DNA of 51,886 bases. It comes from Myxococcales bacterium (lineage in GTDB: Bacteria > Myxococcota > B64-G9). The translations under genes were made by a program, and so were the position numbers. Where the stretch lies: positions 1 through 51,886 of the forward strand of contig JAAZNF010000012.1 of NCBI GenBank assembly GCA_012798435.1, given 5' to 3'. The notes below the pieces were generated by a model that made no database searches, was not told where the DNA came from, and worked only from the letters and a program-made list of their open reading frames with translations. Shown here one piece after another: positions 10,179-50,755 of the stretch. Numbering within the stretch: position 1 is the stretch's first letter; each line of letters begins with the position of its first letter.

Positions 10179-11792
10179 ATGGAAACACTCAAGAAGATCG
10201 GCAAGCAATCGTTGGCCTTCTACCAGGGGCTGTCTCCCGCTCGGCGCTGGTCGCTCGGGCTGCTGCTAGTCCTTTCGCTGGCCTTCTTCGTGTTCGTGGC
10301 GCTGGTGTTGTCTCGGGACGATTTCCGCTCGCTCGGTGGCGGAATGTCGGCCGAGGAAGTACAGGCCACCGTGGCCCGCCTGAAGGAGCGCAACATCCCG
10401 GCCCGGGTGCGCGACGCTGGCGACGGCGTGGAGGTGCCCGCTTCCCGCCTGGACGAGGCCCGCATGGAGCTGGCGGCCGCCGGCCTGCCGCGCGCGGGGG
10501 GCGCGGGCTTCGAGCTGTTCGACCATGACGATCTGGGAATGACCCGTTTCAAGGAGCAGGTCACCTTCCAGCGTGCCCTGGAAGGAGAGCTGGCGCGCAG
10601 CATCCGCTCCCTCAAAGAAGTGCGTTCGGCCCGGGTCCACCTGGTGCTGCCGCAGCGCAGCCTGTTCCGCGAGGAGCAGCGGGAACCCTCGGCCTCGGTG
10701 ATGATCAACCTGCTGCCGGGGGCCGATCTGGAGCCGGCGCGGGTGAAAGGCATCCGCTACCTGGTGTCCTCGGCGGTGGAGGGCTTGCGGCCGGGTCGAG
10801 TGACCGTGATCGACTGACAGGGCCGGGTGCTGGCGCGGTTGGACGAGGCAGAGGGCGGCGGGCTGAACGACGAACGGGTGGCCTATCAGCGCGAGATCGA
10901 GCGCCTGGTGGAACGCCGCATCCTGGACCTGCTGGAGCCGCTGGTGGGTGCCGGGCGCGTGGTGGCCCAGGTGACCGCCGATGTGGACTTCGACAAGGTG
11001 GTGGAGACCCGCGAGGAGTACAACCCGGACCGGGCGGTGGTGCGGAGCGAACAGCGGACCAACGAGAGCCGCAATCGCGAGAACGCCATCGCCGCCGGTG
11101 TGGTGGGCACGCCATCCAACCTGCCCGGTGGCAGCGGGCCGGCCGTGGGCGCGCAGCCGGGGGACTACCAGCGCTCGAGCGAGACGCTTTCGTACGAGAT
11201 CGACAAGAAGGTGCAGCGCACCGAGCGGCCGCAGGGCAACCTGCGGCGCCTGAGCGCCGCGGTGGTGGTGGACGGGAGCTACCGCAGCGAGGGCAATGGA
11301 AACAGCGGGCGACCGGTCTACCAACCGCGCACACCCGAGGAGATGGAGCGGTTCGCCGTGCTGGTCAAGAAGGCGGTGGGCTTCGATGAGACGCGTGGCG
11401 ATCAGGTCGAGGTGTCCAACCTGGCCTTCCAGACCGTGGAGACCCCGGAGGAGCCCTCCCTGCTCGCCGTCTGGTGGGAGCGCCTGGATGGCCTGGCCGC
11501 CGCCCGCATCGTGGGTTTGATCCTGCTCGGCGTGCTGCTGTTCTTCTTTGGCGTGAAACCGGCCGTGCGCGGTCTTTTCGGGGCGCGCTCGCCCACGGTG
11601 TTGCCACCGGGAAAGACACTGACCGTGTCGGAGCTGGAACAGCGGCTGGGACCAGCCGGTCTGCTCGACACCGGCTCGGCCGCCACGGAGCTGCCGGGCG
11701 ACTCCGCCAGCCAAATCCGCCAGATGGCGACGCAGAACCCCGAGCGGGTGGTGCACCTGCTCAAGAACTGGCTTGAGGAGGAGAGCCGATGA
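10179..11792 (+). pseudogene. fliF: MS-ring protein FliF, interrupted by one in-frame TGA
   Basis: The frame encodes a full-length FliF of about 537 codons, broken only by TGA at 10815-10817. The first part (10179-10817) gives 212 residues with the N-terminal membrane helix (LGLLLVLSLAFFVFVALVL) and the first ring-building domains (LASRLDEAR-type region, VHLVLPQRSLF). After the TGA the same frame continues as QGRVLARLDEAEGG, matching the point where E. coli FliF reads VDQSGHLL, then ring domain 3, the second membrane helix (IVGLILLGVLLFFFGV) and the FliG-binding tail (VVHLLKNWLEEESR). No ribosome site precedes a restart codon; GTG 10827 has none. The first product alone would lack the FliG-binding end. 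The cause may be a real nonsense mutation, recoding or a sequence error. Confidence 0.85.
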
Positions 11793-33685: not shown

Positions 33686-34372
33686 GTGACGCTGCTGGCC
33701 CTTGACAACGGCCTCCGCCCCGACTCTCCGCGCGCGCTCGAAAAGGCGGCGCGGCAACTGGAAGGTTTCTTTTGGGAGATGCTGCTTTCCGAGATGCGCC
33801 GCAGCCTGCCGGAGTCCGACTGGCTCGGCGAGGGAGCGCAAGGCCAGATGGCGGTCGCGCTCTTCGATCAGGTCATGTCAGAAAAACTCGCCGCCGGCGC
33901 CAGCCTGGGTCTGGCGGAGGCGGTGACGCGCTCGCTCTCAGGAGCGGCAGAGACGGATCCGCTGGTGTGCCTGGGGCTCCGGGACTGTGGGCACATCTCC
34001 TCGGCATTCGGTTATCGCACGGACCCCTTCACCGGCCAGCCGCAGTTCCACAACGGGATCGACATCGCGGCCCCCGAAGGCCAGCCGTTCACGGCGCTGG
34101 CTTCAGGTCGGGTGGTCCAGGCCGGGGAGAATGGCGGCTTGGGGCTCTCCGTGACGGTGCGCCACGCCGACGGCAGCGAGGCGGTGTACGGCCATCTCAA
34201 GGCTGCGCGGGTGCAATGTGGAGATCTGGTGCGAGCGGGGCAGCCGCTCGGCGAGATCGGCCAGAGCGGGAGGTCCACCGGACCCCACCTGCATCTCGAG
34301 GTCCGGCGCCACGGCCGGAGTCTGGATCCCCGTCTCGCGCTCCCGGGAGTGGTGCGGGCTCAAGTTCGCTGA
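33686..34372 (+). CDS. flgJ: Rod-binding protein FlgJ fused to an M23 peptidase domain
   Basis: 228 residues from GTG 33686 behind GAGAGGAGG. The first 85 residues form the FlgJ rod-binding domain (ALEKAARQLEGFFWEMLLSE, then QGQMAVALFDQVMSEKLA). The C-terminal half is a LytM/M23 metallopeptidase domain, not the glucosaminidase of enteric FlgJ. It has H122 and D126 in FHNGIDIAAPEGQPF and the H201-L-H203 pair in GPHLHLEVR, so the zinc ligands are present. It would cap the growing rod and cut peptide cross-links for rod passage. There is no signal peptide, which fits type III export as in FlgJ. Confidence 0.9.
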   Translation: MTLLALDNGLRPDSPRALEKAARQLEGFFWEMLLSEMRRSLPESDWLGEGAQGQMAVALFDQVMSEKLAAGASLGLAEAVTRSLSGAAETDPLVCLGLRDCGHISSAFGYRTDPFTGQPQFHNGIDIAAPEGQPFTALASGRVVQAGENGGLGLSVTVRHADGSEAVYGHLKAARVQCGDLVRAGQPLGEIGQSGRSTGPHLHLEVRRHGRSLDPRLALPGVVRAQVR

Positions 34373-37628: not shown

Positions 37629-38064
37629 CCTGCCGGCCGCGGTCGAGAGCCCGCGTTTTGGCCGCCTGGCGGTCGAACCGGCCAAGGTGATCACCCTGCA
37701 GCACGGAATGATCGGCTTCCCCCAGCAGCGGCACTTCATCCTGCTCGATCACGCTCCCGGCTCTCCCCTCCATTGGCTGCAGTCGGTGGACGAGGGGGGG
37801 CTGGCCTTCCCGGTGGCCTCGCCGCTGCATTTCGTGTCGGATTATCGTCCGGCCCTCCCCTCCGACCTGGCGGAGCTGGTGGGCGACTTCGGGGATGAGG
37901 ACCTGTGGCTAGGCGTGGTCGTGTCGTTTCCGCCGGGACAAGGGACGGCCACGCTGAATCTCAAGGCTCCGGTGGTGCTGAATACTCGCAGCCGTCTGGG
38001 AGCGCAGCTCGTGCTGGACGATCCATCACTCCCCCTGCGCTTCGTCTTGCCCGCGGGCGCATGA
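37537..38064 (+). CDS. fliW: Flagellin-binding CsrA antagonist FliW
   Basis: The FliW core is clear: [40 protein letters not shown] and [20 protein letters not shown] then LRFVLP. ATG 37537 (175 residues) has a good ribosome site (GAGGAG) but overlaps csrA by 92 bases and gives a basic, low-complexity leader. TTG 37612 would give 150 residues, the family's usual size, but has a poor ribosome site. FliW binds free flagellin or CsrA, linking flagellin export to its translation. Its stop overlaps the ATG of the cyclase gene. Confidence 0.88.
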
Positions 38065-40841
38065 GTCGCGAAGAAATCGATTTCTGGAGCCAACTTCCCA
38101 GCGCGGAGGCGGTGCGGCCGCCGTCGCCGGAAGCCACGGCACCACCGCTTTCGCCGCGCGAGCGAGAGCGCCGGTACCGGACCGTGCGCGCCTCTCGGCT
38201 TCAGGCATTGCGCCGGCGCTTGGTCGAGCCTGCCCGGCTGGTGTTCGACGCCTTGCCCGGCCTGCTGCACCAGGTGGAAGCGGGCACACCCGCTGCCGGC
38301 GAGACGGCCGGTTGCCCCGCCGGCATCGTCAACTTCGAGCCCAGCGAGGCCATGCGCCTGGCCATGTCTCGGCTGTTCCCCAAGGTGGGCTGGCACAGCG
38401 CGCTCAGCCGCGGCCGACCGGCCATCCAGGCATTGTTCACCATCGGCAGCATGGGGACGGTGGCGCAGACGCAAAGCTCGGATCTCGACCTGTGGTTGCT
38501 GGTGGACGAACGAGAGGCGCAGGGCAAGGGATTGCGCCTGTTGCGGCGGCGTCTGGACGCCCTCGCGGAATGGGCTGCGCGCCACGGATTGGAAGTGCAC
38601 TTCTTCCCCCTGAGCCTCGCCCAGGTGCGCGCTTGCGACTTCGGGCGTCTCGACGGGGAGAGTTGCGGCACCACCATGCGGCATGCCCTGCAGGAGGAAT
38701 TCTACCGCACTCATCTGGTGATCCAGGGACGCCATCCGCTGTGGTGGCTCGTGCCGCCGCGGCTGGACGAGGAGGCGTACCAGAGCGCGATCCGGGCGTT
38801 GGAACGCGACGTCAGCATCGTACGTGACGACTACCTGGACCTGGGAGCGCCGCGACCGGTGGGGGTTGAGGAGGTGTTGGGGGCTGGCTTGTACCAGTTT
38901 CTCAAGGCCGTGGAGCGTCCTTTCAAGGCCTTGCTCAAGATGACGCTGCTGGCCCGCCACTTGGAGGCGGCACAACCCGTATTGCTATGCGAACTCTTGA
39001 AGGAGCGCGTCATGGGTTCGCAGGCGCCGGGCCCGCTGGAGAATGATCCCTACCTGTTGCTCCTCGACGTCTTGGTGCAGGAGATGCGGACCAGCGGGAA
39101 AACGGAGGACGTCGATCTGATCGAGGACGCCTTCTACCTGCAGCTATGGAGCGCGCGGGGGAAAGGAGAAGACCCGGGCATGGAAGCGACGCTGCGGGAA
39201 CTGGCCGCCCGCTGGGGTTGGCCGGCCTCTCGCATCGAACGGCTGCAGAGCTTCGAGCGCTGGAGCCCGGCCGCGGTCGATGGACTGGGGCGCCGCATCC
39301 AACGGTACCTGGAGTCGGTGCTGGACCGGTTGCAGCGACGCTACCCTTCTCTGCCACCGCAGGCCCTGTCTGCCCGCGACTTCATCGCGCTGCAGAACAA
39401 GCTCCGTTGCAGCCGCGGTCAGGAGCCCAACCAGGTTCCGCTTCTATACACCGGGTATTTCCCCGCCTCGCTGATCCAGCCACTGCTCCACTTCCGCCGG
39501 GATGCGGAAGGGGTGCGTCTGGACAGCGCTGCGGGGGAGACACTGGCGCGCGGGTTGGACGAGGACCTGGCCATGGCCTTTCCGGCCCTGAACGGCCTGT
39601 TCGGGCCCGAGACCGTGGTACGGGTGAATGACTGGCCCGGCGCTCGCTTGTCTCTGGTGAGGCGGCGGCTGGAACGGCTCACCCGCTTCGTGGCCCACAC
39701 CCGCCCCGACAAGGTGCCGGTGGAGCGTTTTGTCGAGGCGCCCCGCGTCGAGCGGATGCTGGTAGAGGCGCAGTTCGCGACACCGATGGCCGAAGAGGAT
39801 GTGCAGCGGCTCTCTCAGCAGTGGGATCCGTTGGACTACGGTTCCGAAGGCATGTGCCAGCTCGACCGGCTGGTGGTGTGGAAGGTCACGTCCTGGGGCA
39901 CGGTGGAACGTCGGGTCTTGCAGGGTGCGGACGGCCTGGTGGAGCTCTTGTTGTGGCTGGCCCGTCTCGGGAGGGAGTTGTCGTCGGGGGCCTTCGACAT
40001 CGCGCCGCGCGACGCCCTTTCGGGACGGGGCGTGCCGCGCCTGCGGCGGTTGACGCAGACGGTCATGGAGACGTTTTCGCCGATGGAGAACGGTGAGCCG
40101 GCGGAGCGAGTCTTGTGGTTGCGGCTGGGCGGCCAGAACGTCTTGCTGCTCGGCCAACATGGTTCCTTGGACGCCCTGCCAAATCTCAGCGAAGACGACG
40201 TGCAGCGAGTATTGGCGCGGCAGCCTGCGGCAGGTGGCAGGAGGCTGGTGCTCGACCCCGCCAGCCGGGCGTTGGAACCGTGGCGAGAGGCGCAACGCCG
40301 CGTGCCGCCTGGCGTGGCGAGAAACGTATGGTTGCGCCAACACGGCGACAATCTGGTCGTGAGCGTGTCGCCGGATGGTCGCATGGCGTGGGATCGCAAC
40401 CAGGGGGATCGGAAGCGCCTGGCACTCCTGCTCTCGGAGGCGGCGGCGGGAAGCGGGGGCGAGGCGCCGCTATCGCTGCGGTTCACTCCGGACGGCGTTT
40501 GGGAGGAGGCCGAAGCCCCGGTCCTCGAGGCGACCGGACCAGAGGTCGTGGCGAGCGGCGATCTGAGCCGACCCACCGAACTACGGTTCTGGGTCGAGCC
40601 GGGCGGTGCCCGGTCGGCGCGAGAGACGCTGGAGGAAGCGGCGGTGCGGTTGTTGGCGCGCTTCAAGCCGGGCCGGGAACGGCCCGTGTACCTGAAGTTG
40701 GGCGAGGTGAGCCTGGACGGACGGGAGCCGGACGCGGTGGAGCGGATCTTCTGGCGGCGGGAGCTGGAAGGGTGGCTGTTCGAGGCCTGTCTGCGCCTCT
40801 CGGGCGCACCCGGCTCAAGCCTCGGCAGGACGGGCCGATGA
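38061..40841 (+). CDS. Class I adenylate cyclase-like protein
   Basis: 926 residues from ATG 38061, overlapping the fliW stop (ATGA). The catalytic nucleotidyltransferase signature is present: G129-S130 in IGSMGTVAQTQSSDLDLWLL with D141 and D143 as predicted metal ligands, as in E. coli CyaA (GS, about 10 residues, then DLD-W). The long remainder (about 300-926) includes a CyaA-style helical region (LKAVERPFKALLKMTLLARH) and a divergent C-terminus. No membrane segment is seen. It probably makes cyclic AMP from ATP in the cytosol. Genomic placement between fliW and flagellin is unusual, and its last bases carry the flagellin promoter. A non-cyclase nucleotidyltransferase cannot be excluded. 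Confidence 0.8.
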   Translation: MSREEIDFWSQLPSAEAVRPPSPEATAPPLSPRERERRYRTVRASRLQALRRRLVEPARLVFDALPGLLHQVEAGTPAAGETAGCPAGIVNFEPSEAMRLAMSRLFPKVGWHSALSRGRPAIQALFTIGSMGTVAQTQSSDLDLWLLVDEREAQGKGLRLLRRRLDALAEWAARHGLEVHFFPLSLAQVRACDFGRLDGESCGTTMRHALQEEFYRTHLVIQGRHPLWWLVPPRLDEEAYQSAIRALERDVSIVRDDYLDLGAPRPVGVEEVLGAGLYQFLKAVERPFKALLKMTLLARHLEAAQPVLLCELLKERVMGSQAPGPLENDPYLLLLDVLVQEMRTSGKTEDVDLIEDAFYLQLWSARGKGEDPGMEATLRELAARWGWPASRIERLQSFERWSPAAVDGLGRRIQRYLESVLDRLQRRYPSLPPQALSARDFIALQNKLRCSRGQEPNQVPLLYTGYFPASLIQPLLHFRRDAEGVRLDSAAGETLARGLDEDLAMAFPALNGLFGPETVVRVNDWPGARLSLVRRRLERLTRFVAHTRPDKVPVERFVEAPRVERMLVEAQFATPMAEEDVQRLSQQWDPLDYGSEGMCQLDRLVVWKVTSWGTVERRVLQGADGLVELLLWLARLGRELSSGAFDIAPRDALSGRGVPRLRRLTQTVMETFSPMENGEPAERVLWLRLGGQNVLLLGQHGSLDALPNLSEDDVQRVLARQPAAGGRRLVLDPASRALEPWREAQRRVPPGVARNVWLRQHGDNLVVSVSPDGRMAWDRNQGDRKRLALLLSEAAAGSGGEAPLSLRFTPDGVWEEAEAPVLEATGPEVVASGDLSRPTELRFWVEPGGARSARETLEEAAVRLLARFKPGRERPVYLKLGEVSLDGREPDAVERIFWRRELEGWLFEACLRLSGAPGSSLGRTGR
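40815..40841 (+). promoter_or_regulatory. Sigma28 promoter of the flagellin gene
   Basis: TCAA (40815-40818, within CTCAAGCCT), exactly 15 bases, then GCCGATGA (40834-40841). It lies inside the final codons of the cyclase gene and ends on its stop codon. The predicted start is near 40848, giving a leader of about 52 bases. Confidence 0.78.
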
Positions 40842-42149: not shown

Positions 42150-42259
42150 CCCCTCCTGCCGCGGAAAAGACACGAACCGCTTGTGGAACGCCGGGCCGCG
42201 AGGTGCCGACAGCCAGCGCCGCCTGGCGCGCTCCCGATGCCGATGTGCCATCGCTCGAC

Positions 42260-42286
42260 TCAAGATCTCACTTGGGGGACCGATGA
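42260..42286 (+). promoter_or_regulatory. Sigma28 promoter of fliD
   Basis: TCAA (42260-42263, within CTCAAGATC), exactly 15 bases, then ACCGATGA (42279-42286). It differs by one base in the -10 from the flgM and flagellin promoters. The predicted start is near 42293, so ATG 42309 is the fliD start and the longer upstream open frame is not used. Confidence 0.7.
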
Positions 42287-42308
42287 AGCAGAAGGAAAGG
42301 AAGCGCCC

Positions 42309-43667
42309 ATGACATTTCGCGCCGGCGGAATTTTTTCGGGACTCGACACCAACAGCATCATCGAGCAGCTAGTGGCCCTGGAACGGATCCCCATCCAGAA
42401 CCTGCAAAAGAAACAGGAGACCATCAACACCCAGAAGTCCCTGCTGAGCGAGATCTCGAGCGCGCTGACGGAGCTCAAGACGCTACTTTCCGGCATGGAC
42501 CGGACCAGCGAGGTGCTGGCCTACACGGCCCAATCCTCGGACGAGTCCGTGCTGCGCGCCAGCGCCAGCGGTTCCGCCAGCCCCGGCGTGTACTCCATCC
42601 AGGTGTTGCAGCGGGCCCGCGCCGAGCAGGATCGCTCGGTCGCCTTCGCCTCCGCCGACGCCGAGGTCAAGGCCGGCAGCATCGAGATCACCGTGGGTTC
42701 GGCCGATCCGGTGACCGTTGCCATCGAGGAGGGCATGACGCTGGCCGACGTGGCGTACGCCATCAACCAGTCCGGCGCGGCCGTCAACGCCGCCGTGATT
42801 GATACCGGCAGTTCCGCCTACCTCACCATCTACGCTCGCGACACCGGTTACGAGGGCGTGGCCGACGATGCCCTGGTGATCGCGGAGAGCTACACCGGAA
42901 GCACCGGCCAGGAACTCTCGCTCACCCAGACGGTGCAGGCGCAGAATGCGCAGATCGTGTTCGACGGTCTCACCGTGGAGCGGCGCGAGAACCGCATCAC
43001 CGACGTGGTGGCGGGCCTCACCCTGGACGTCCTCGACGACACCGGCCAGCCGACGGTCGAGATCACGGTGCTGGGCGACACCGAGACCATCAAGGGCCGC
43101 GTCCAGGGGTTCGTGGACGCCTACAACAAGGTGGTCTCGCTCTTGCACTCCCAGTTCGTGCGCGATGCCGACGGCGGGGTGGGCGTGATGTTTGGCGACA
43201 GCACCCTGCGATCGCTACTCTCTCGGCTCCAGCTCGCTGCCGGCGAGCCGGTGAGCCAGAGTGGCAGCGACATCGCCACCCTGTACCAGATCGGGCTCAA
43301 GACGGGGTCGGATGGCACCTTGAGCGTGGACGCGGTCACCTTGGACGCCGCGCTGGCCGAGGACCCGTCCGGGGTGGCGGGGTTGTTCGCCGAGGAGAGC
43401 ACCGGGTTGGCCGATCGCATGAGCGGCTTGGTCACGGAATTTACCGACGTCGTCTCCGGTATCTTGGTGGAGCGCCAGGAAGGGCTGGACACCCGTTACG
43501 AGAACCTCGAAGATCAGATCGCCCGCATGGAACAGCGGGTTGAGGACTATGAGAAGCTGCTGGTGCAGCAGTTCACCTATCTCGAGACCGTCATCTCACA
43601 GCTCAAGGCGCAGCAGACGAGCCTGCTCAACTGGTCGAGCCAGTTCAGCGCCAGCCAGAACGGGTGA
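42309..43667 (+). CDS. fliD: Filament cap protein FliD
   Basis: 452 residues from ATG 42309, behind AAGGAAAGGAAG. The N-terminus is diagnostic (FSGLDTNSIIEQLVALERIP). The central domains have IQVLQRARAEQDRSVAF and VAGLTLDVLDDTGQPTVEIT. The C-terminus has a coiled coil (LEDQIARMEQRVEDYEKLLV) and ends in LKAQQTSLLNWSSQFSAS. It caps the growing filament as a pentamer. It starts an operon with fliS and the fliT-like gene. Confidence 0.95.
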   Translation: MTFRAGGIFSGLDTNSIIEQLVALERIPIQNLQKKQETINTQKSLLSEISSALTELKTLLSGMDRTSEVLAYTAQSSDESVLRASASGSASPGVYSIQVLQRARAEQDRSVAFASADAEVKAGSIEITVGSADPVTVAIEEGMTLADVAYAINQSGAAVNAAVIDTGSSAYLTIYARDTGYEGVADDALVIAESYTGSTGQELSLTQTVQAQNAQIVFDGLTVERRENRITDVVAGLTLDVLDDTGQPTVEITVLGDTETIKGRVQGFVDAYNKVVSLLHSQFVRDADGGVGVMFGDSTLRSLLSRLQLAAGEPVSQSGSDIATLYQIGLKTGSDGTLSVDAVTLDAALAEDPSGVAGLFAEESTGLADRMSGLVTEFTDVVSGILVERQEGLDTRYENLEDQIARMEQRVEDYEKLLVQQFTYLETVISQLKAQQTSLLNWSSQFSASQNG

Positions 43668-43670
43668 TCC

Positions 43671-44060
43671 ATGCACAACCCCTACCAGAGCTCTCGGGTG
43701 CTCACCGCCGACCGCGGCCAGCTCCTGCTCATGCTATACGACGGGGCGCTGCGGTTCAACGGCCAGGCCGTCGACGAGATCGGCCGCGGTCAATACCTCA
43801 AGGCGCTGCCTTACATGCGGCGGGTGATGGCCATCGTGCAGGAGCTCTCCGCGATGTTGGACCATTCCCGCGCCCCGGAGATCTGCGCCAACCTGGAGCG
43901 GTTGTACCAGTTCGTGCTCGACCGGATCGTGGCAGCGCAAACCGATCGTTCGGCGAAGCCGCTCGCAGACGTGACGCGCATACTCGGCGATCTACGTCAG
44001 ACCTGGCAGGAAGCTTTAGAGAAGGCAAACGACAAGAAACCGATGGAACGCACGGGGTGA
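43671..44060 (+). CDS. fliS: Flagellin chaperone FliS
   Basis: 129 residues. The FliS pattern is clear: MHNPYQSSRVLTADRGQLLL, MLYDGALRFNGQAVDEIGRG and APEICANLERLYQFVLDRIV. It binds flagellin's C-terminus in the cytosol and delivers it to FlhA. It sits 3 bases after fliD. Confidence 0.94.
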   Translation: MHNPYQSSRVLTADRGQLLLMLYDGALRFNGQAVDEIGRGQYLKALPYMRRVMAIVQELSAMLDHSRAPEICANLERLYQFVLDRIVAAQTDRSAKPLADVTRILGDLRQTWQEALEKANDKKPMERTG

Positions 44061-44063
44061 TCG

Positions 44064-44444
44064 ATGCCCTCGCGGCTGGAATCGTGGCAACTGCTCACGG
44101 CCCTGGATGACGTTACACTGAGGATGCGCGAGGCGCTGGTCGCATGTGACATGCCAGCTTTCTCCGACCTGCTTGCCCGTCGCCAATATCTGGTGGATGG
44201 CCTGGTGAAAATTGACGCTGAAACAGACCCATCATCCGGCGTGTCCGCGTCCGGTGATTTCGAGAAAATATCAAATAAAGTCAATTGGTTGTTGGTTGCT
44301 GGCGAACGTCTGATCGCGTCGGCCGAGGCCTTGCGTTCCGACCTCCTGGAAAAGAGGCGTCAGAACTCCGTCGCTAGGACCGCGCTGCGCTCCTACCTGG
44401 CCAAGACTGGTGGGCCCATCAACACTCGGGTGCTTGATGGATAA
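44064..44444 (+). CDS. FliT-like export chaperone candidate
   Basis: 126 residues, all helical (LLTALDDVTLRMREALVACD, then ARRQYLVDGLVKIDAETDPS), with a C-terminal SYLAKTGGPINTRVLDG. Its size, helical content and place right after fliS fit FliT, the FliD chaperone, a family with little sequence conservation. The DNA here is locally richer in A and T (around 44260-44290) than the neighbours. The last codons contain a hairpin, CCATCAA...TTGATGG (44416-44440), without a T-run. Confidence 0.65.
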   Translation: MPSRLESWQLLTALDDVTLRMREALVACDMPAFSDLLARRQYLVDGLVKIDAETDPSSGVSASGDFEKISNKVNWLLVAGERLIASAEALRSDLLEKRRQNSVARTALRSYLAKTGGPINTRVLDG

Positions 44445-44517: not shown

Positions 44518-44533
44518 TGGCACCAGGCTTGCA
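44518..44533 (+). promoter_or_regulatory. Sigma54 promoter of the receiver/PilT-like operon
   Basis: TGGCACCAGGCTTGCA has GG at 44519-44520 and GC at 44531-44532, a near-perfect -24/-12 element. The predicted start is near 44544, 34 bases ahead of ATG 44578. No GTCA-N6-TGAC repeat was found upstream. Confidence 0.85.
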
Positions 44534-44577
44534 AAGGGTTCTGGGCCCTCGGAAATGGGGCTTCGGAGGATGCTCGA

Positions 44578-45009
44578 ATGACGAACCCGGGCCAAGCCGC
44601 TGCTGGTTTCAACCATCGTCTCCATGTGTTGGTGGCGGGAGCGGACGAAAGGACCCTCCACACCATACGTCGACTAGTGGCGGAGGATTGCGAACTCCAG
44701 TGTTGCAGCATCGACGCTGTCGTCGGGGCGCTGGCGTCAAGAAGCTTCGATGGATTGATCATCGATCTCGACCGGGCGCGCCTGTCGGCGGGGCGGTTGC
44801 TGGGCGAGGCGCGGACCAGGGGCCTGCACCTGCCGGCGCGCATTTTCTTCCTGGACGGATCGAAACGATCGGTCGCGCCGCCTTCGATGGGCGAGGCCGT
44901 GCTTTTGAAAAAACCCCTGGACGTGGCAGCGCTGGCGGCTCTCGTGCGATCCCAGAGCGATTCTCGGGCGCCGCTTGGGCAGCTCGCGCTGGCGGCGGGA
45001 ATGCCATGA
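44578..45009 (+). CDS. Receiver-like single-domain protein
   Basis: 143 residues from ATG 44578, 7 bases after GGAGGA. The fold looks like a CheY-type receiver: LHVLVAGADERTLHTIRRLV at the start, FDGLIIDLDRARLSAGRLL at the phosphoacceptor strand, and EAVLLKKPLDVAALAALV with the conserved Lys-Pro. The acidic pair after strand 1 is reduced to Ala-Asp-Glu, so phosphorylation is uncertain. The frame upstream of 44578 is before the promoter and is not used. It is first of a sigma54 operon and overlaps the next gene by 4 bases. Confidence 0.65.
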   Translation: MTNPGQAAAGFNHRLHVLVAGADERTLHTIRRLVAEDCELQCCSIDAVVGALASRSFDGLIIDLDRARLSAGRLLGEARTRGLHLPARIFFLDGSKRSVAPPSMGEAVLLKKPLDVAALAALVRSQSDSRAPLGQLALAAGMP

Positions 45010-45374
45010 CTTGCGACCGCGAACTCATGGAGAGCGCCAGCCGAACCCTTTCCAGCCTGCGGCGAATGCTGGACGAGGACCCAAGCCAGGCCGTGGCGCA
45101 CTTGCGAGAGGCGCTCACCTGCCTGGGACGCATCGAGGAACACCTGGGCGCGGCGGAGCCTTTGCAGCCTGCTCGGGAAGTGGTGCGCCGGTACCTGACA
45201 CGCCTGCGAGCCTCGCTCGAAGATCTCTTGATGCGCAGGATGAGAGAGGATCCGGGGTGTGAGGAGATCCTGGCCGGAGAGGTGCTGCCGCTTTCCGAGG
45301 GGCTGGAAGGCCTGTGCCGGTCTCTGGCGGCAGGGACAATCGCTTCGCGCCCGACCGGTTCTCGGGAGGCATGA
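45006..45374 (+). CDS. Small helical protein of unknown function
   Basis: 122 residues, nearly all helix (SASRTLSSLRRMLDEDPSQA, then LREALTCLGRIEEHLGAAEP and RRYLTRLRASLEDLLMRRMR), acidic, with no signal or membrane segment. It overlaps the receiver-like gene and the PilT-like gene by 4 bases each, so all three are co-translated. I do not recognise a family. Its size and helix pattern could suit an adaptor or a phosphotransfer-like bundle, but no conserved His is evident in a suitable motif. Confidence 0.6.
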   Translation: MTCDRELMESASRTLSSLRRMLDEDPSQAVAHLREALTCLGRIEEHLGAAEPLQPAREVVRRYLTRLRASLEDLLMRRMREDPGCEEILAGEVLPLSEGLEGLCRSLAAGTIASRPTGSREA

Positions 45375-46459
45375 GCGTGGACATCGCCACCGCCGAACAG
45401 AGCATCGCCCGTTTGCTGGCGCTGGCAGTTCAGCAGCGCGCCTCTGATGTGCACATCCGCGTGGGCCAGCCCCCCATGTTGCGGGTGGCGGGAGAGCTCA
45501 CGTCGGTCGAGGGAATACTCTTCGACCGGGAGGCATTGCTGGCCGTCTCCGAGCGTATGATCCCGGCCGGCCTGCGGGAGCGAGCCGCCGCCTGTAGCCA
45601 GTTCGACTTTTCGGCGGAATGGCCGGGGGCGGCCCGCTTTCGGGTGCACCGCTTCTTTGCGCGAGGGGAGGCAGCACTGGTGCTGCGGCTCATCCCGCTG
45701 CACATCCCGGATTTTGCCGCCTTGCGCCTGCCGCCGGCGGTGAAGCGTGTCGCCGCCCTGGAGCGGGGACTGGTGCTGGTGACCGGGGCCACCGGCATGG
45801 GCAAGTCAACCACCATCGCGTCCATCCTGGACTACTTGAGCAAGAACACCCGCCAGCACATCCTGACCATCGAGGACCCGGTGGAGTTCATCATCGGGCC
45901 GGGGACTTCGCTGGTGAGCCAGCGCGAGGTGGGGCGGGATATCCTGGACTACTCATCGGGGTTGTGGGCCGCCCTGCGCGAGGATCCCGACACCATCTTC
46001 CTGGGCGAGATCCGCGACCTGGAGACCGTGCGGGTGGCGTTGCAGGCCGCCGAGACGGGCCACTTGGTGCTGAGCGCCATCCACACCAGCGATGCCACCA
46101 GCACCGTGGAGCACCTCATCAGCCTGTTCCCACCGGAGGAGCAGATGGCGGGGCGCTTCCGCCTGGCGGAAACGTTGCAGGCGGTGCTCAGCCAGAAGCT
46201 CTTGCCCATGAAAGGGCGCAAGTCGCGCCTCCTGGTGACCGAGATCATGCTGCGCTCGGCCAGCATCCAGGAGATGATCCGCAAGCCTGAGCGGCTGCGG
46301 GGGCTTGCGGAACGTATCGCTCAGTCGGTGCCGGATGGCATGCACACCTTCGATCAAGAGCTTCGGCGGATGCTGGAGGGAGGGTTGCTCGACTTCGAAG
46401 TGGCGCGGACGGCGGCCTCGAATCCCGCTGACTTCGTGCGCAATTTGCAGGTCACCTAG
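45371..46459 (+). CDS. PilT/PilU-like secretion-superfamily ATPase
   Basis: 362 residues from ATG 45371. The N-terminal PAS-like domain reads RLLALAVQQRASDVHIRVGQ. Walker A is GATGMGKS at residues 139-146. The Asp box ILTIEDPVEFI, Walker B FLGEIRDLETVRVALQAAET and His box GHLVLSAIHTSDATSTVEHL are intact. The retraction-associated AIRNLIRE-type C-terminal motif is altered (SIQEMIRKPERL), closer to PilU than PilT. These ATPases power pilus retraction, yet no pilus gene lies in this window. Its link to flagella is unknown. Confidence 0.88.
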   Translation: MSVDIATAEQSIARLLALAVQQRASDVHIRVGQPPMLRVAGELTSVEGILFDREALLAVSERMIPAGLRERAAACSQFDFSAEWPGAARFRVHRFFARGEAALVLRLIPLHIPDFAALRLPPAVKRVAALERGLVLVTGATGMGKSTTIASILDYLSKNTRQHILTIEDPVEFIIGPGTSLVSQREVGRDILDYSSGLWAALREDPDTIFLGEIRDLETVRVALQAAETGHLVLSAIHTSDATSTVEHLISLFPPEEQMAGRFRLAETLQAVLSQKLLPMKGRKSRLLVTEIMLRSASIQEMIRKPERLRGLAERIAQSVPDGMHTFDQELRRMLEGGLLDFEVARTAASNPADFVRNLQVT

Positions 46460-46511
46460 CGGGAGGGGACTCGCTGGTCCGGATGGGGTTGGCGGAACGA
46501 AAGGTCGGATC

Positions 46512-48887
46512 ATGACGACAGCGAACATCCTGGCTTACGAGGACATCTGTCTGCGATTCGATCTGGGGCGAACCCTCATGGCTCGGGAGGGTGTGAAGGT
46601 GCGCACGGCGCGTTCGGGCTGGGAGTTCGTCCTGGAGGCATCGCATCAGCCACCCGACCTGATGTTGCTCGAACACTGGATGCCCGACATGCTGGGCGAC
46701 GAGGTGCTGGAGCAGCTGCGCCGCCAGTCGAGGCTGCGCGGGGTGGCCGCCCTGGTGCTGTGTCCCGGCTTGCCGCCCGAAGCCATGCGGCGCTATCAGA
46801 GCCTGGAGCCATCGCAGCTGATCACGGAGCCACCGCCGATCGGAGAATTCCAACAGCGACTGTTCGAGGCGCTGCACATGGCGACGCGGCTCAACCTGCG
46901 CGTGGCGATCGAGGTCCCGGTGTCGCTACAGATGGCCGGGCTGGTGGTGCTGGGGCACACCCGGGAGCTCTCGTTGACCGGGGCTTCGCTGGCGGTGGGG
47001 CAGGAGTTCGCCGTCGGAGACGAGATCGAGCTCTGTTTCCTCAAGCCCGAAGGCGGTGCTCCACAGGCCAGCCTGCGTGCCCGCGTGCGTCATGCGGCTC
47101 AGGGGCCCGTCTCGTGGGTGCTGGGGGTGGAGTTCCTCGACCCGACACCAGAAGCGCGCCGTTGGCTGGAGAGCGTCACATGCTTCGGCACCAGGCTTCA
47201 GCAGACGCTGGATCGAATGGACCGTCTGCCCGCCTTGCCGCCCGTGGCTGCCCGCGTCCTGGAATTGTGCGTGGACGAGAAGGCGGATCTCCATGCGCTG
47301 GTGGAACTGATCCGCTCCGATCCCTCGCTGACGAGTAGCGTGCTCAAGATGGCGAACAGCGCCGCCTACCGCGCGGTGTCGCCGGTCACCACGGTGGAGC
47401 GGGCCACGACGTTGATGGGGATGCGCAGCGTGCGCTACGCCGTGTTGGGTGTCACCATCCTGCGGCACGTGGCCGGCAACGGGCAGCGGCAGCCGGGATA
47501 TCACCTGTGGCGCCACTCGTTGGCCTGCGCCTTGGCCTGTGAAGCCCTGGCGCGCCGGAGCGACCTCCCAGTGGACGAAGCGTTCGTCTGGGGGTTGCTG
47601 CACGACGTGGGACGCTTCCCCATGCTCTCTGAGATGAAGCCCGATGCCACTGTGGGTGAGAGGATGCGGCGCTTCACGCTGGAGCAGGAGCGGCACCAAT
47701 TCGGTGTCGATCACGCCGAGACCGGGGCCCTGCTGCTGTCGCGGTGGCGGGTGCCTTCCAGTATCTGGAAGGTCGTGAGACATCACCACGCGCCGGAGGC
47801 GGCCGAACCCGAGCTGCGCCGGGCCTGCGAGTTGGTGCAGGCCGGCGATGCGTTGGCGTACCAGTGCCACATGGGTGCGGAGAATGGCCTCAATGACGGC
47901 GAGGCTCGCCTGCACCTCGCCGTGCCGCGCGAGCAGATGGAGGAGCTGGCCGGTGGCCTCTATCGGCGGTTGGCCGAGATCGGCGAAATGTTCGGCCAGC
48001 CCATCGATCCCACCGCCCTGTGCGCCGAGATTGTGGAGCGGGCCAACCACCGATTGGCGGAAGAGCTGGGGGGCGTGCTGGAGCAGCACGAACTGCTCAA
48101 GCGGGCCTACGAACGCACGCGGCAGCAGCTCGTCAGCCTGGCCCAGTCCGAGAAATTCCACTCCCTGGGCCGTATCGCCGGCGCGGTGGCCCACGAGATC
48201 AACAACCCGCTGGCTTTCGCCCGCTCGAACCTCTCGACGCTGCAGGAATACTTGCAGACCCTGGGCGACTCGTTGCGTCAGCGGGGTCCGATCACGGTGG
48301 AGACGGAGGAGATCCTGCGCGACATTCCCAAGCTGATTGCCGAGACCGTCAATGGATTGGACCGGGTGCACGGGGTAGTGCGGGCGCTGGGCCACCTGAC
48401 CCCCGATGGGCAGCCGGGCTTCATCGAAGAATCCATGCTGAGCGCATGCCTGGAGGACGCCCTGTGTCTGGCGTCTACCTCGCGCCCGGCGACCGTCCAG
48501 GTTTCGTTTCAGGCGGATGAGATACCGCCGCTGTGGCTCGACTCGGGCAACCTGGCGCGGGCCTTCGTGGAGATCATCATCAACGCCTTCGGGGCGATGC
48601 CGGGCGGCGGCCGGTTGGACATCCACCTGTACCAGGAGGGCGACGAGGCGGTGGTGGCGTTCCGCGACACCGGGCAGGGGATCCACGAGCAGGATCTGCG
48701 TCACCTGTTTGAACCGTTCTTCACCACCCGCCCAATGGGCGAGGGTCGCGGCCTGGGGCTGTCCATGGCCTGGGGCATCGTGAGCCGGCACCACGGGAAC
48801 ATCCAGGTGCAATCGACGCCGGGCCAGGGAACCGTGGTCCAGGTGCGCTTGCCGATAAACCGCCAGCATGGGTCGTGTGGCGCTTAA
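46512..48887 (+). CDS. Receiver-PilZ-HDOD-histidine kinase protein
   Basis: 791 residues from ATG 46512. Domains in order: a receiver-like domain (1-120, LAYEDICLRFDLGRTL), a PilZ-type domain (about 125-225, RLNLRVAIEVPV with ELSLTGASLA, E replacing the usual D/N), an HDOD domain (about 230-440) with an intact HD pair in GLLHDVGRFPM, and a HisKA/HATPase module (about 540-785) with AVAHEINNPLAFARSNL and GRGLGLSMAWG. It is cytosolic. Cyclic-di-GMP sensing and kinase output in one chain is inferred from the domains. It follows the PilT-like gene by 52 bases and may share its promoter. Confidence 0.85.
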   Translation: MTTANILAYEDICLRFDLGRTLMAREGVKVRTARSGWEFVLEASHQPPDLMLLEHWMPDMLGDEVLEQLRRQSRLRGVAALVLCPGLPPEAMRRYQSLEPSQLITEPPPIGEFQQRLFEALHMATRLNLRVAIEVPVSLQMAGLVVLGHTRELSLTGASLAVGQEFAVGDEIELCFLKPEGGAPQASLRARVRHAAQGPVSWVLGVEFLDPTPEARRWLESVTCFGTRLQQTLDRMDRLPALPPVAARVLELCVDEKADLHALVELIRSDPSLTSSVLKMANSAAYRAVSPVTTVERATTLMGMRSVRYAVLGVTILRHVAGNGQRQPGYHLWRHSLACALACEALARRSDLPVDEAFVWGLLHDVGRFPMLSEMKPDATVGERMRRFTLEQERHQFGVDHAETGALLLSRWRVPSSIWKVVRHHHAPEAAEPELRRACELVQAGDALAYQCHMGAENGLNDGEARLHLAVPREQMEELAGGLYRRLAEIGEMFGQPIDPTALCAEIVERANHRLAEELGGVLEQHELLKRAYERTRQQLVSLAQSEKFHSLGRIAGAVAHEINNPLAFARSNLSTLQEYLQTLGDSLRQRGPITVETEEILRDIPKLIAETVNGLDRVHGVVRALGHLTPDGQPGFIEESMLSACLEDALCLASTSRPATVQVSFQADEIPPLWLDSGNLARAFVEIIINAFGAMPGGGRLDIHLYQEGDEAVVAFRDTGQGIHEQDLRHLFEPFFTTRPMGEGRGLGLSMAWGIVSRHHGNIQVQSTPGQGTVVQVRLPINRQHGSCGA

Positions 48888-48954: not shown

Positions 48955-49155
48955 GTGATCCACCTGACCCGCCTGGGACACCACGATTTCGTTCTCAACT
49001 CCGAGCTGATCCTCACCGTGGAAAGCACGCCGGACACGGTGGTGACGCTCATGAACGGCGTGAAGTACATGGTCGAGGAGCCGGTGGATGAAGTGGTGCG
49101 GCGGGTGATCGCCTATCGGCGCGCGGTGCACGCGGGCCCGGCGGCTGGGGAGTGA
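48955..49155 (+). CDS. swrD: SwrD/FlbD family protein
   Basis: 66 residues from GTG 48955, with CAGGGAGA upstream. The family pattern is complete: MIHLTRLGHHDFVLNSELIL then ESTPDTVVTLMNGVKYMVEE. SwrD raises motor torque in Bacillus and the gene commonly precedes motA in many phyla. Here it lies 3 bases before motA. The name follows the Bacillus protein. Confidence 0.88.
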   Translation: MIHLTRLGHHDFVLNSELILTVESTPDTVVTLMNGVKYMVEEPVDEVVRRVIAYRRAVHAGPAAGE

Positions 49156-49158
49156 GCC

Positions 49159-49965
49159 ATGGACAAGGCGACCGTGGTCGGTCTGTTGATGGCCTGGGTG
49201 GCCCTCGTTGGCTCGGCCCTGTGGGAGGGCACGCACCTGTCGGCGCTGCTCAACGCTCCGGCCTTCATGCTCATTGTCGGCGGCACACTCGGCGTGACGA
49301 TGATGAGTTATCCGCTCAAGACCACCACCAACATCAGCAAGGTGCTGAAGAACGCCTTCTTCGAAAAGCACATGGATCTGGCCGAGACCATCCGCACGCT
49401 GGTGAAGTTCTCCGAGCGCGCCCGGCGCGAGGGACTGCTGGCGCTGGAATCCGAGGTCGCCAAGATCCAGGACGAGTTTTTGCAGAAGGGCATCCAATTG
49501 GTGGCCGACGGCTTCGACATGCAGGTCACTCGCTCCATCCTGGAAAACGATCTCGCGCACATCGAGGAGCGTCACCACGAAGGCGAAGGGTTCTTCTCCA
49601 CCATGGGGGGCTACGCGCCCACTCTGGGCATCATCGGCACCGTGCTTGGCCTGGTGCACGCCCTGGGACAGCTCGAGGACCCCAGCAAGATGGGCGCGGC
49701 CATCGCCGGGGCCTTCATCGCCACCTTCTACGGGGTGTCCTTTGCCAACCTGATTTTCTTGCCGTTGGGAGCCAAGCTCAAGGCGCGCAACGCCGAGGAG
49801 TCCCTGGTGCGCCAGGCCATGATCGAGGGCATCATCTCCATCGAGGCCGGGGACAACCCGCGCATCACCGAGGAAAAGCTCAAGGTGTTCCTGGCCCCGG
49901 AGCAGCGCACGGCCGTCCAGCGCGAGAAGACTGCGGCGCGCAGCGAGGCCCCGGGCCCCGCCTGA
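49159..49965 (+). CDS. motA: Flagellar stator protein MotA
   Basis: 268 residues with four membrane helices. Conserved segments: FMLIVGGTLGVTMMSYPLKT, FFSTMGGYAPTLGIIGTVLG and AAIAGAFIATFYGVSFANLI. The cytoplasmic loop has KFSERARREGLLALESEVAK, including basic and acidic residues facing FliG. It is of the proton-type MotA/PomA family; the ion cannot be assigned from sequence alone. Confidence 0.96.
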   Translation: MDKATVVGLLMAWVALVGSALWEGTHLSALLNAPAFMLIVGGTLGVTMMSYPLKTTTNISKVLKNAFFEKHMDLAETIRTLVKFSERARREGLLALESEVAKIQDEFLQKGIQLVADGFDMQVTRSILENDLAHIEERHHEGEGFFSTMGGYAPTLGIIGTVLGLVHALGQLEDPSKMGAAIAGAFIATFYGVSFANLIFLPLGAKLKARNAEESLVRQAMIEGIISIEAGDNPRITEEKLKVFLAPEQRTAVQREKTAARSEAPGPA

Positions 49966-49984: not shown

Positions 49985-50755
49985 ATGGCCAAGAAGCACC
50001 AGGAGAGCGGCGGTGGCGGTGGGCACGACGGTGGCGGCTCGATGCGCTGGTTGCTCACCTACGCCGACATGATCACGCTGCTGGTGGCCTTCTTCGTCAT
50101 GCTATACTCGCTGTCGATCCTCGACCTCAAGAAGTTCCAGGCGGTGGCCGGCGCCTTGCGCATGAACTTCGGTGGCACCGAGAAGACCATGCCCGAGGGT
50201 GGCAAGGGTGTACTCATGCCCGGGCCGGCGGACGGCACCAAGATCGCCATCGTCTCCGGATCGGGCGTGGCCCAGATGTCGGCGGTGGCCGCGAACATCA
50301 AGAAACTCATCGAGCGTGCCGGGTTGCAGGGATCGCTCAGCGTCATCCCTTCCGAGCGCGGCGTCACGGTGCGCTTCGCCGCCGAGGGCATCATGTTCCC
50401 GCCGGGGTCGGCCGACTTGCAGCCTTCGGTGCTGCCCATCCTCAAGCAGGTGGGAGAGATCGTCGCCGGGACCCAATACTCGGTGCGCGTCGAGGGACAC
50501 ACCTGCTCGCTGCCGATGGCCAGCGCGCGCTTCCCCTCCAACTGGGAGTTGTCCTCGGCGCGGGCCAGCGCGGTGGTGCGCTACCTGCTGTCGCTGGGGA
50601 TTCCCGCGCACCGTCTCACGGCGGTGGGCTACGCCGATGCCCACCCCATCGCGCCGCAGGACAACGAAGCCGACCGGCGCCGCAACCGCCGGGTGGACAT
50701 CGTGATCACCGAGAGCCCGGAGGAGAAGCTCCTGCAGGACATCCTCAATCCATAA
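49985..50755 (+). CDS. motB: Flagellar stator protein MotB
   Basis: 256 residues. A Gly/Ser-rich cytoplasmic start is followed by the single helix with the ion-binding aspartate D28 (TYADMITLLVAFFVMLYSLS). A plug region follows (KKFQAVAGALRMNFGG). The C-terminal OmpA-like peptidoglycan-binding domain has VRVEGHTCSLPMASARFPSN, SSARASAVVRYLLSLGIPAH and NRRVDIVI. It anchors the stator in the wall. GGGAGGCGCC precedes the ATG. Confidence 0.96.
   Translation: MAKKHQESGGGGGHDGGGSMRWLLTYADMITLLVAFFVMLYSLSILDLKKFQAVAGALRMNFGGTEKTMPEGGKGVLMPGPADGTKIAIVSGSGVAQMSAVAANIKKLIERAGLQGSLSVIPSERGVTVRFAAEGIMFPPGSADLQPSVLPILKQVGEIVAGTQYSVRVEGHTCSLPMASARFPSNWELSSARASAVVRYLLSLGIPAHRLTAVGYADAHPIAPQDNEADRRRNRRVDIVITESPEEKLLQDILNP

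Follow-up and report, generated by a model that had tools for sequence, protein, structure and literature searches.

A myxobacterial PilT-family ATPase gene in a sigma54-preceded signalling unit of a flagellar cluster suggests a link between swimming and type IV pili

The window (the whole stretch of DNA that was analysed, 51,886 nucleotides) is contig C128 of a 5.05-Mb genome, 97% complete, and carries a large flagellar cluster. At the end of this cluster, downstream of a FlaG-like gene, fliD, fliS and a FliT-like gene, lies a unit of four genes, here called A to D (Table 1), whose GC3 of 0.73-0.87 fits coding DNA. A sequence-only reading had placed these genes behind a sigma54 promoter, and this was borne out, as the four genes are real and a site with a single mismatch to the consensus that was scored (TGGCACG-N4-TTGCW) precedes them. 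Sites with no more than one mismatch numbered 3 in the window compared to 0.5 expected, and those with no more than two mismatches numbered 14 compared to 5.25 expected. A GGAGG sequence lies eight bases 5' of the gene A ATG, A/B and B/C are joined by ATGA overlaps and C and D are separated by 52 bases, giving the total of three ATGA overlaps or short gaps that had been counted. The unit does lie between filament and stator genes, with fliD-fliS-fliT on its upstream side and flbD-motA-motB on its downstream side. Matching FliD genes adjoin FliS in the Myxococcota fliS loci surveyed, and the FliT-like protein has a weak match (32 bits) to the product of a gene 3' of fliS in another genome, G002.

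Table 1. Features of the four-gene unit and the genes flanking it (window positions)
Feature	Position	Strand	Basis
FliD	42237..43667	+	read as FliD by sequence
FliS	43671..44060	+	Pfam FliS 103 bits
FliT-like small helical protein	44064..44444	+	directly 3' of fliS; without Pfam match
Sigma54 (-24/-12) promoter TGGCACCAGGCTTGCA	44518..44533	+	one mismatch to consensus
Gene A, single-domain diverged receiver, 143 aa	44578..45009	+	AlphaFold model, Foldseek
Gene B, four-helix bundle, 122 aa, possible adaptor	45006..45374	+	ATGA overlaps both sides; model
Gene C, PilT-family hexameric ATPase, 362 aa	45371..46459	+	TIGR01420 374 bits; clade 100/99
Gene D, receiver-like/PilZ/HDOD/HisKA-HATPase kinase, 791 aa	46512..48887	+	Pfam and sequence
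FlbD	48955..49155	+	Pfam FlbD 92.5 bits
MotA stator	49159..49965	+	Pfam MotA_ExbB 114 bits
MotB stator	49985..50755	+	Pfam OmpA and MotB_plug

Some other features of the flagellar cluster are recorded here in their own right. The fliF gene (window 10179-11792) holds one in-frame TGA at 10815-10817, between TVID and QGRVL, the remainder reading through as FliF, so that either the draft sequence is wrong at this point or a gene that flagella cannot do without is truly broken. A class-I adenylate cyclase gene (37905-40841; Adenyl_cycl_N 148 bits, Adenylate_cycl 68 bits) lies inside the cluster between a flgL-like gene and flagellin, and this second-messenger enzyme has no standard place in a flagellar cluster. 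The FlgJ-like protein (33686-34372) has a rod-binding segment and an M23 peptidase domain, where enterobacterial FlgJ has a glucosaminidase. Sigma28-like sites (TCAAG...GCCGATGA and similar, with 2-3 mismatches) at 34360, 40815 and 42260 precede flgK, flagellin and fliD, and so different sigma factors appear to control the filament genes and the sigma54 module.

Gene A had been called a receiver and, though it had no match in the Pfam search, its fold agrees: the AlphaFold model has the strand and helix order of a receiver and the top Foldseek matches are mostly receivers (E 2.6e-4 and up). The acceptor D and the K-P are present, the Thr is lost and the acidic pair is reduced. Gene D, previously described as a PilZ-HDOD kinase, scored 46 bits for PilZ (cut-off 22.5), 161 for HDOD and 78 for HATPase; that description had missed an N-terminal receiver-like domain (29.7 bits, just below the cut-off of 30.2) in which the acceptor D is replaced by E. 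The PilZ domain has the RLNLR motif, and its second motif reads ELSLTG, with E where [D/N]xSxxG has D/N, making c-di-GMP binding by D uncertain, and the receiver-like segment is also without a phospho-acceptor. The kinase motifs (H-box AHEINNPL, NAFGAM and DTGQGI) are present, with HisKA scoring 23.5 bits, under its 26.9 cut-off.

The predicted structure of gene B (pLDDT 77) has helices at residues 5-24, 26-47, 51-76 and 83-108 and gave no significant structural match in the PDB, FliS being top-ranked at E 0.15. B as a FliS or FliT relative was rejected, since the FliS matches (E 0.15-1) were no better than those to unrelated four-helix bundles. A counterpart by position was found only in G005, a genome of the same family. 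BLAST does not connect the two proteins, and so their homology is based on position and helical pattern; a search of the phylum with a two-row B model recovered these two proteins and otherwise marginal matches.

Gene C matched TIGR01420, the PilT/PilU family, over residues 12-354 with a score above the curated NCBIfam cut-off of 319 bits, in agreement with its earlier description as a PilT/PilU-like ATPase. The Walker A (GATGMGKSTT), Asp box (TIEDPVEF), Walker B (IFLGEIRD) and His box (ETGHLVLSAIHT) are all intact, and the closest solved relatives are PilT structures (PDB 2ewv, 2gsz, 5fl3, 6ojx). C thus resembles canonical PilT in family, length, catalytic boxes and a profile match of some 350 residues, but it has FRxH where PilT has FRxN, it lacks AIRNLIRE, it falls outside the canonical clade and its context is flagellar rather than that of a pil operon. 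AIRNLIRE, present in the canonical PilT of the same genome, is replaced by SIQEMIRKPE in the window protein and by xIR[DK] in the clade to which it belongs (described below), being absent from all seven full clade members. Four clade-wide residues also stand apart from pilus PilT (H93, F210, E204 and H325 in window numbering): residue 93 is His in 7/7 members and Asn, Ser or Thr in others, and Phe is found at 210 in 7/7. PilU likewise has no AIRNLIRE and functions only together with PilT (PMC6762196). C is like PilU and the PilT-2 accessory retraction ATPases in being a PilT paralog without AIRNLIRE in a genome that also has a canonical PilT, but it lies neither in a pilT operon nor in the proteobacterial PilU clade.

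The genome containing the window has ten T2SSE-family matches, and on another of its contigs (C36) a canonical pilB-pilT-pilC-pilS-pilR operon has its genes side by side, the pilT product being only about 37% identical to C. The possibility that C is an ordinary pilT misplaced in the bin was rejected, as flagellar genes surround it in the middle of its contig and a canonical pilT is present elsewhere in the genome. A tree of 43 sequences placed C with six other myxococcal proteins (support 100/99). Canonical PilT (that of the same genome and those of proteobacteria), a further group of myxococcal paralogs and proteobacterial PilU all fell outside this clade, and so C does not belong with an ordinary retraction system, a grouping that would have counted against the sequence-only reading. 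A first tree had flagged a long-branch joining of G028, but with G137, G138, G172 and G182 added the flag was gone and the clade was kept. In the first tree, loci of Archangium and other named Myxococcota were interspersed with those of genomes from the same phylum as the window, which identifies that phylum as Myxococcota. When a profile of the seven members was run against 195 Myxococcota genomes the members scored 572-622 bits and other full-length matches no more than 425. An eighth sequence, a fragment at a contig end in G173 which was outside the training set and scored 395 bits over only 267 residues, looks like a further member, making eight in the 195 genomes. Matches of 46-48% identity in Myxococcaceae-type genomes were rejected as orthologs, since they form a separate clade away from flagellar genes. 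The deep searches of genome collections were made within Myxococcota, mostly on fragmented draft genomes; a scan of named genomes found mostly ordinary PilT among the matches listed, and at these PilT loci no flagellar queries were adjacent among the matches listed, except for weak MotB/OmpA matches to large proteins. A PilT domain also occurs within an ORF of about 1300 residues in G001 (L066 4180-8073), which is possibly a fusion protein.

The genes of the clade (clade pilT) lie inside flagellar loci in 4 of the 8 members, from three distant lineages, and a fifth (G005) is linked indirectly. Both G137 and G138 have clade pilT 3' of flagellin (fliC), fliD, fliS, a small gene and a GT2 glycosyltransferase gene on the same strand, overlapping the glycosyltransferase gene in G138, while in G028 it follows flhF-flhG-fliA, downstream of flgE, fliM, fliP and flhA relatives. 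G005 has, on a 4.3-kb contig, a sigma54 box matching that of the window, then genes for a small kinase-receiver, a helical protein and a PilT 62% identical to C, and finally an open ORF (129 aa, without Pfam match) which runs off the contig and may be the beginning of a PilZ protein. The kinase of G005 has a relative in G002 (32%, E 4e-28) whose gene follows a matching sigma54 box directly after fliD-fliS-fliT, an indirect link between the G005 module and the same post-fliT slot. Divergent from the G005 module, a cytidylyltransferase gene (L060 85-807, minus strand) has a perfect sigma54 box, TGGCACGGGGATTGCT, upstream of it, and so may be a surface-sugar gene under sigma54 control.

The exact four-gene order was found in no other genome searched, including a survey of about 40 fliS loci. 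Gene order, to which the sequence-only reading had looked, is thus conserved only as the loose version in G005 (kinase-receiver, helical protein, PilT and an ORF of no known family behind the same sigma54 box), within the same family. Conservation reaches further for the PilT subtype itself, which is found within the flagellar loci of Myxococcota from distant lineages and usually has two-component or c-di-GMP genes next to it. These signalling neighbours are a receiver and a PilZ-HDOD-kinase in the window, a kinase-receiver in G005, a tandem-receiver-GGDEF-EAL protein in G028, a kinase in G137, a receiver-PAS protein in G138 and a PAS-GAF-kinase in G182; among the kinases compared, the one beside clade pilT in G137 is the best match to the kinase half of gene D (33% identity, E 1e-32). 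Several flagellar loci of unrelated Myxococcota (L090, L099, L103, L105) also have HDOD-domain proteins close to fliS/flagellin or motAB, and G012 has three of them.

FliS scored above its cut-off in 5 of the 8 clade carriers compared to 43 of the 195 genomes overall (hypergeometric 0.014, kinship ignored). FliS was used as the marker of flagella because the FHIPEP/FlhA score is a weak one, with an FHIPEP protein at about 785 bits in Myxococcus-type genomes that have no FliS. No fliS was found in the fragmented G005 assembly, where a high-scoring flagellar FlhA is present. Most flagellated Myxococcota have no clade pilT, and so it is an accessory gene.

The occurrence of a myxobacterial PilT relative in a flagellar cluster, behind a flagellar-type promoter, suggests a link between the swimming machine and type IV pili. 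Our tentative preference, which falls a little short of being probable, is that the unit is a sigma54-driven control module co-regulated with the flagellum and that C serves as a PilU-like, accessory retraction ATPase for type IV pili whose genes lie elsewhere. This is the first of the two functions suggested in the sequence-only reading, the second being action on the flagellum. The unit would be made when the sigma54 flagellar genes switch on, as flagella are completed, and we propose that a cell finishing its flagellum may thereby also retract its pili. C would dock on PilC and retract pili encoded elsewhere in the genome, kinase D and receiver A would set the timing of its activity through phosphorylation and c-di-GMP, and B may serve as an adaptor relaying the signal from A and D to C; we infer the direction of the effect on pili. 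Membership of the PilT/PilU family, the intact catalytic boxes and the PilT structures as nearest solved relatives support the retraction step, for which the pilB-pilT-pilC-pilS-pilR operon could supply the platform, this clade carrier having a full pilus operon too. The absence of AIRNLIRE throughout the full clade members, as in PilU, supports a PilU-like role, the same-box sigma54 promoters ahead of the unit here and in G005 support co-regulation with the flagellum, and the signalling genes adjoining clade pilT in most loci support the control step. Control of pilus ATPases by c-di-GMP via PilZ/FimX is established in other systems (PMC8389850). The adaptor step is not general, since B is confined to the family of the window, and the three of eight carriers in which clade pilT lies away from flagellar structural genes (G172, G173 and G182) count against the mechanism. 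The lost acceptor in the receiver-like segment of D and the E in its second PilZ motif do so too. No pilus genes were seen near C, and for a pure pilus motor it is odd that the clade is tied to flagellar genes and not to pilus genes.

Alternatively, the flagellum may have taken C over, so that it works directly on the flagellar machine (on the stator or the scaffold of the motor, on export of the filament or on pole placement, for instance), A and D being its regulators. The placement of clade pilT among flagellar structural genes in four genomes of three distant lineages and the four clade-wide residues that differ from pilus PilT would fit this, as would family f1, where the ATPase is present in 2 of the 3 genomes with flagellar FlhA and 0 of the 6 without, and the motors of Campylobacterota, which contain PilMNO-like and other pilus-derived parts, offer a general precedent (PMC11870540). 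However, those parts are scaffold proteins and not an ATPase (PMC11870540), a PilT hexamer must have a partner that it turns, neither a PilC-like platform nor another pilus part was seen in the flagellar cluster of the window, and the gene is dispensable for flagella, being missing from most flagellated Myxococcota; we regard this takeover, the main rival to our preference, as unlikely, if by no means far-fetched. A more definite form of it, that a PilT-type motor ATPase of a subfamily co-transcribed with late flagellar genes is a working flagellar part in a subset of Myxococcota, under its own phospho- and c-di-GMP control and not acting on pili, is decidedly unlikely.

The patchy distribution (8/195), with neighbours that differ by lineage, would suit a mobile PilT paralog that had inserted itself into flagellar operons without being functionally connected to flagella, but C is translationally coupled to A and B, the sigma54 box is common to two genera and repeated landing would have been in flagellar loci, a small fraction of the genome, making such a bystander improbable. 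That C regulates instead of acting as a motor, sensing assembly and passing its ATPase state on to a phosphorelay or to gene expression, is very improbable, for while C is embedded in a signalling operon and Geobacter has several PilT paralogs outside the pil cluster that do not all behave alike (PMC5065972), all four catalytic motifs are intact, as expected of a working motor.

Like the unit described here, the PilB-PilZ-FimX system of Xanthomonas and Pseudomonas has c-di-GMP and phospho-receiver domains encoded alongside a pilus ATPase, but the window ATPase is PilT-type rather than PilB-type, the PilZ of the window unit is fused to HDOD and kinase domains and the operon encodes no FimX-like GGDEF-EAL protein. 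FcpMNO/PilMNO of the Campylobacterota flagellar motor cage (PMC11870540) are also type IV pilus proteins associated with flagella, but they form an inner-membrane scaffold, are not an ATPase and co-occur strictly with flagella in that phylum, whereas clade pilT is patchy in Myxococcota. Geobacter PilT1-PilT3 are likewise extra PilT paralogs away from pil genes, but flagella are not mentioned in the text of that paper (PMC5065972). In the open-access literature we found no description of such a link between PilT and flagellar loci, and met no ATPase precedent for a pilus motor acting in the flagellum. The earlier suggestion of an undescribed system fits this literature search.

It is usual to regard flagella and type IV pili as distinct machines, each with ATPases of its own, which a cell coordinates largely through regulation at a distance. 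The recurrence of a PilT subfamily in flagellar operons provides a specific gene with which to ask if flagellar assembly directly drives pilus retraction or, alternatively, if a pilus motor has been borrowed by flagella in the way that pilus scaffold proteins were in Campylobacterota.
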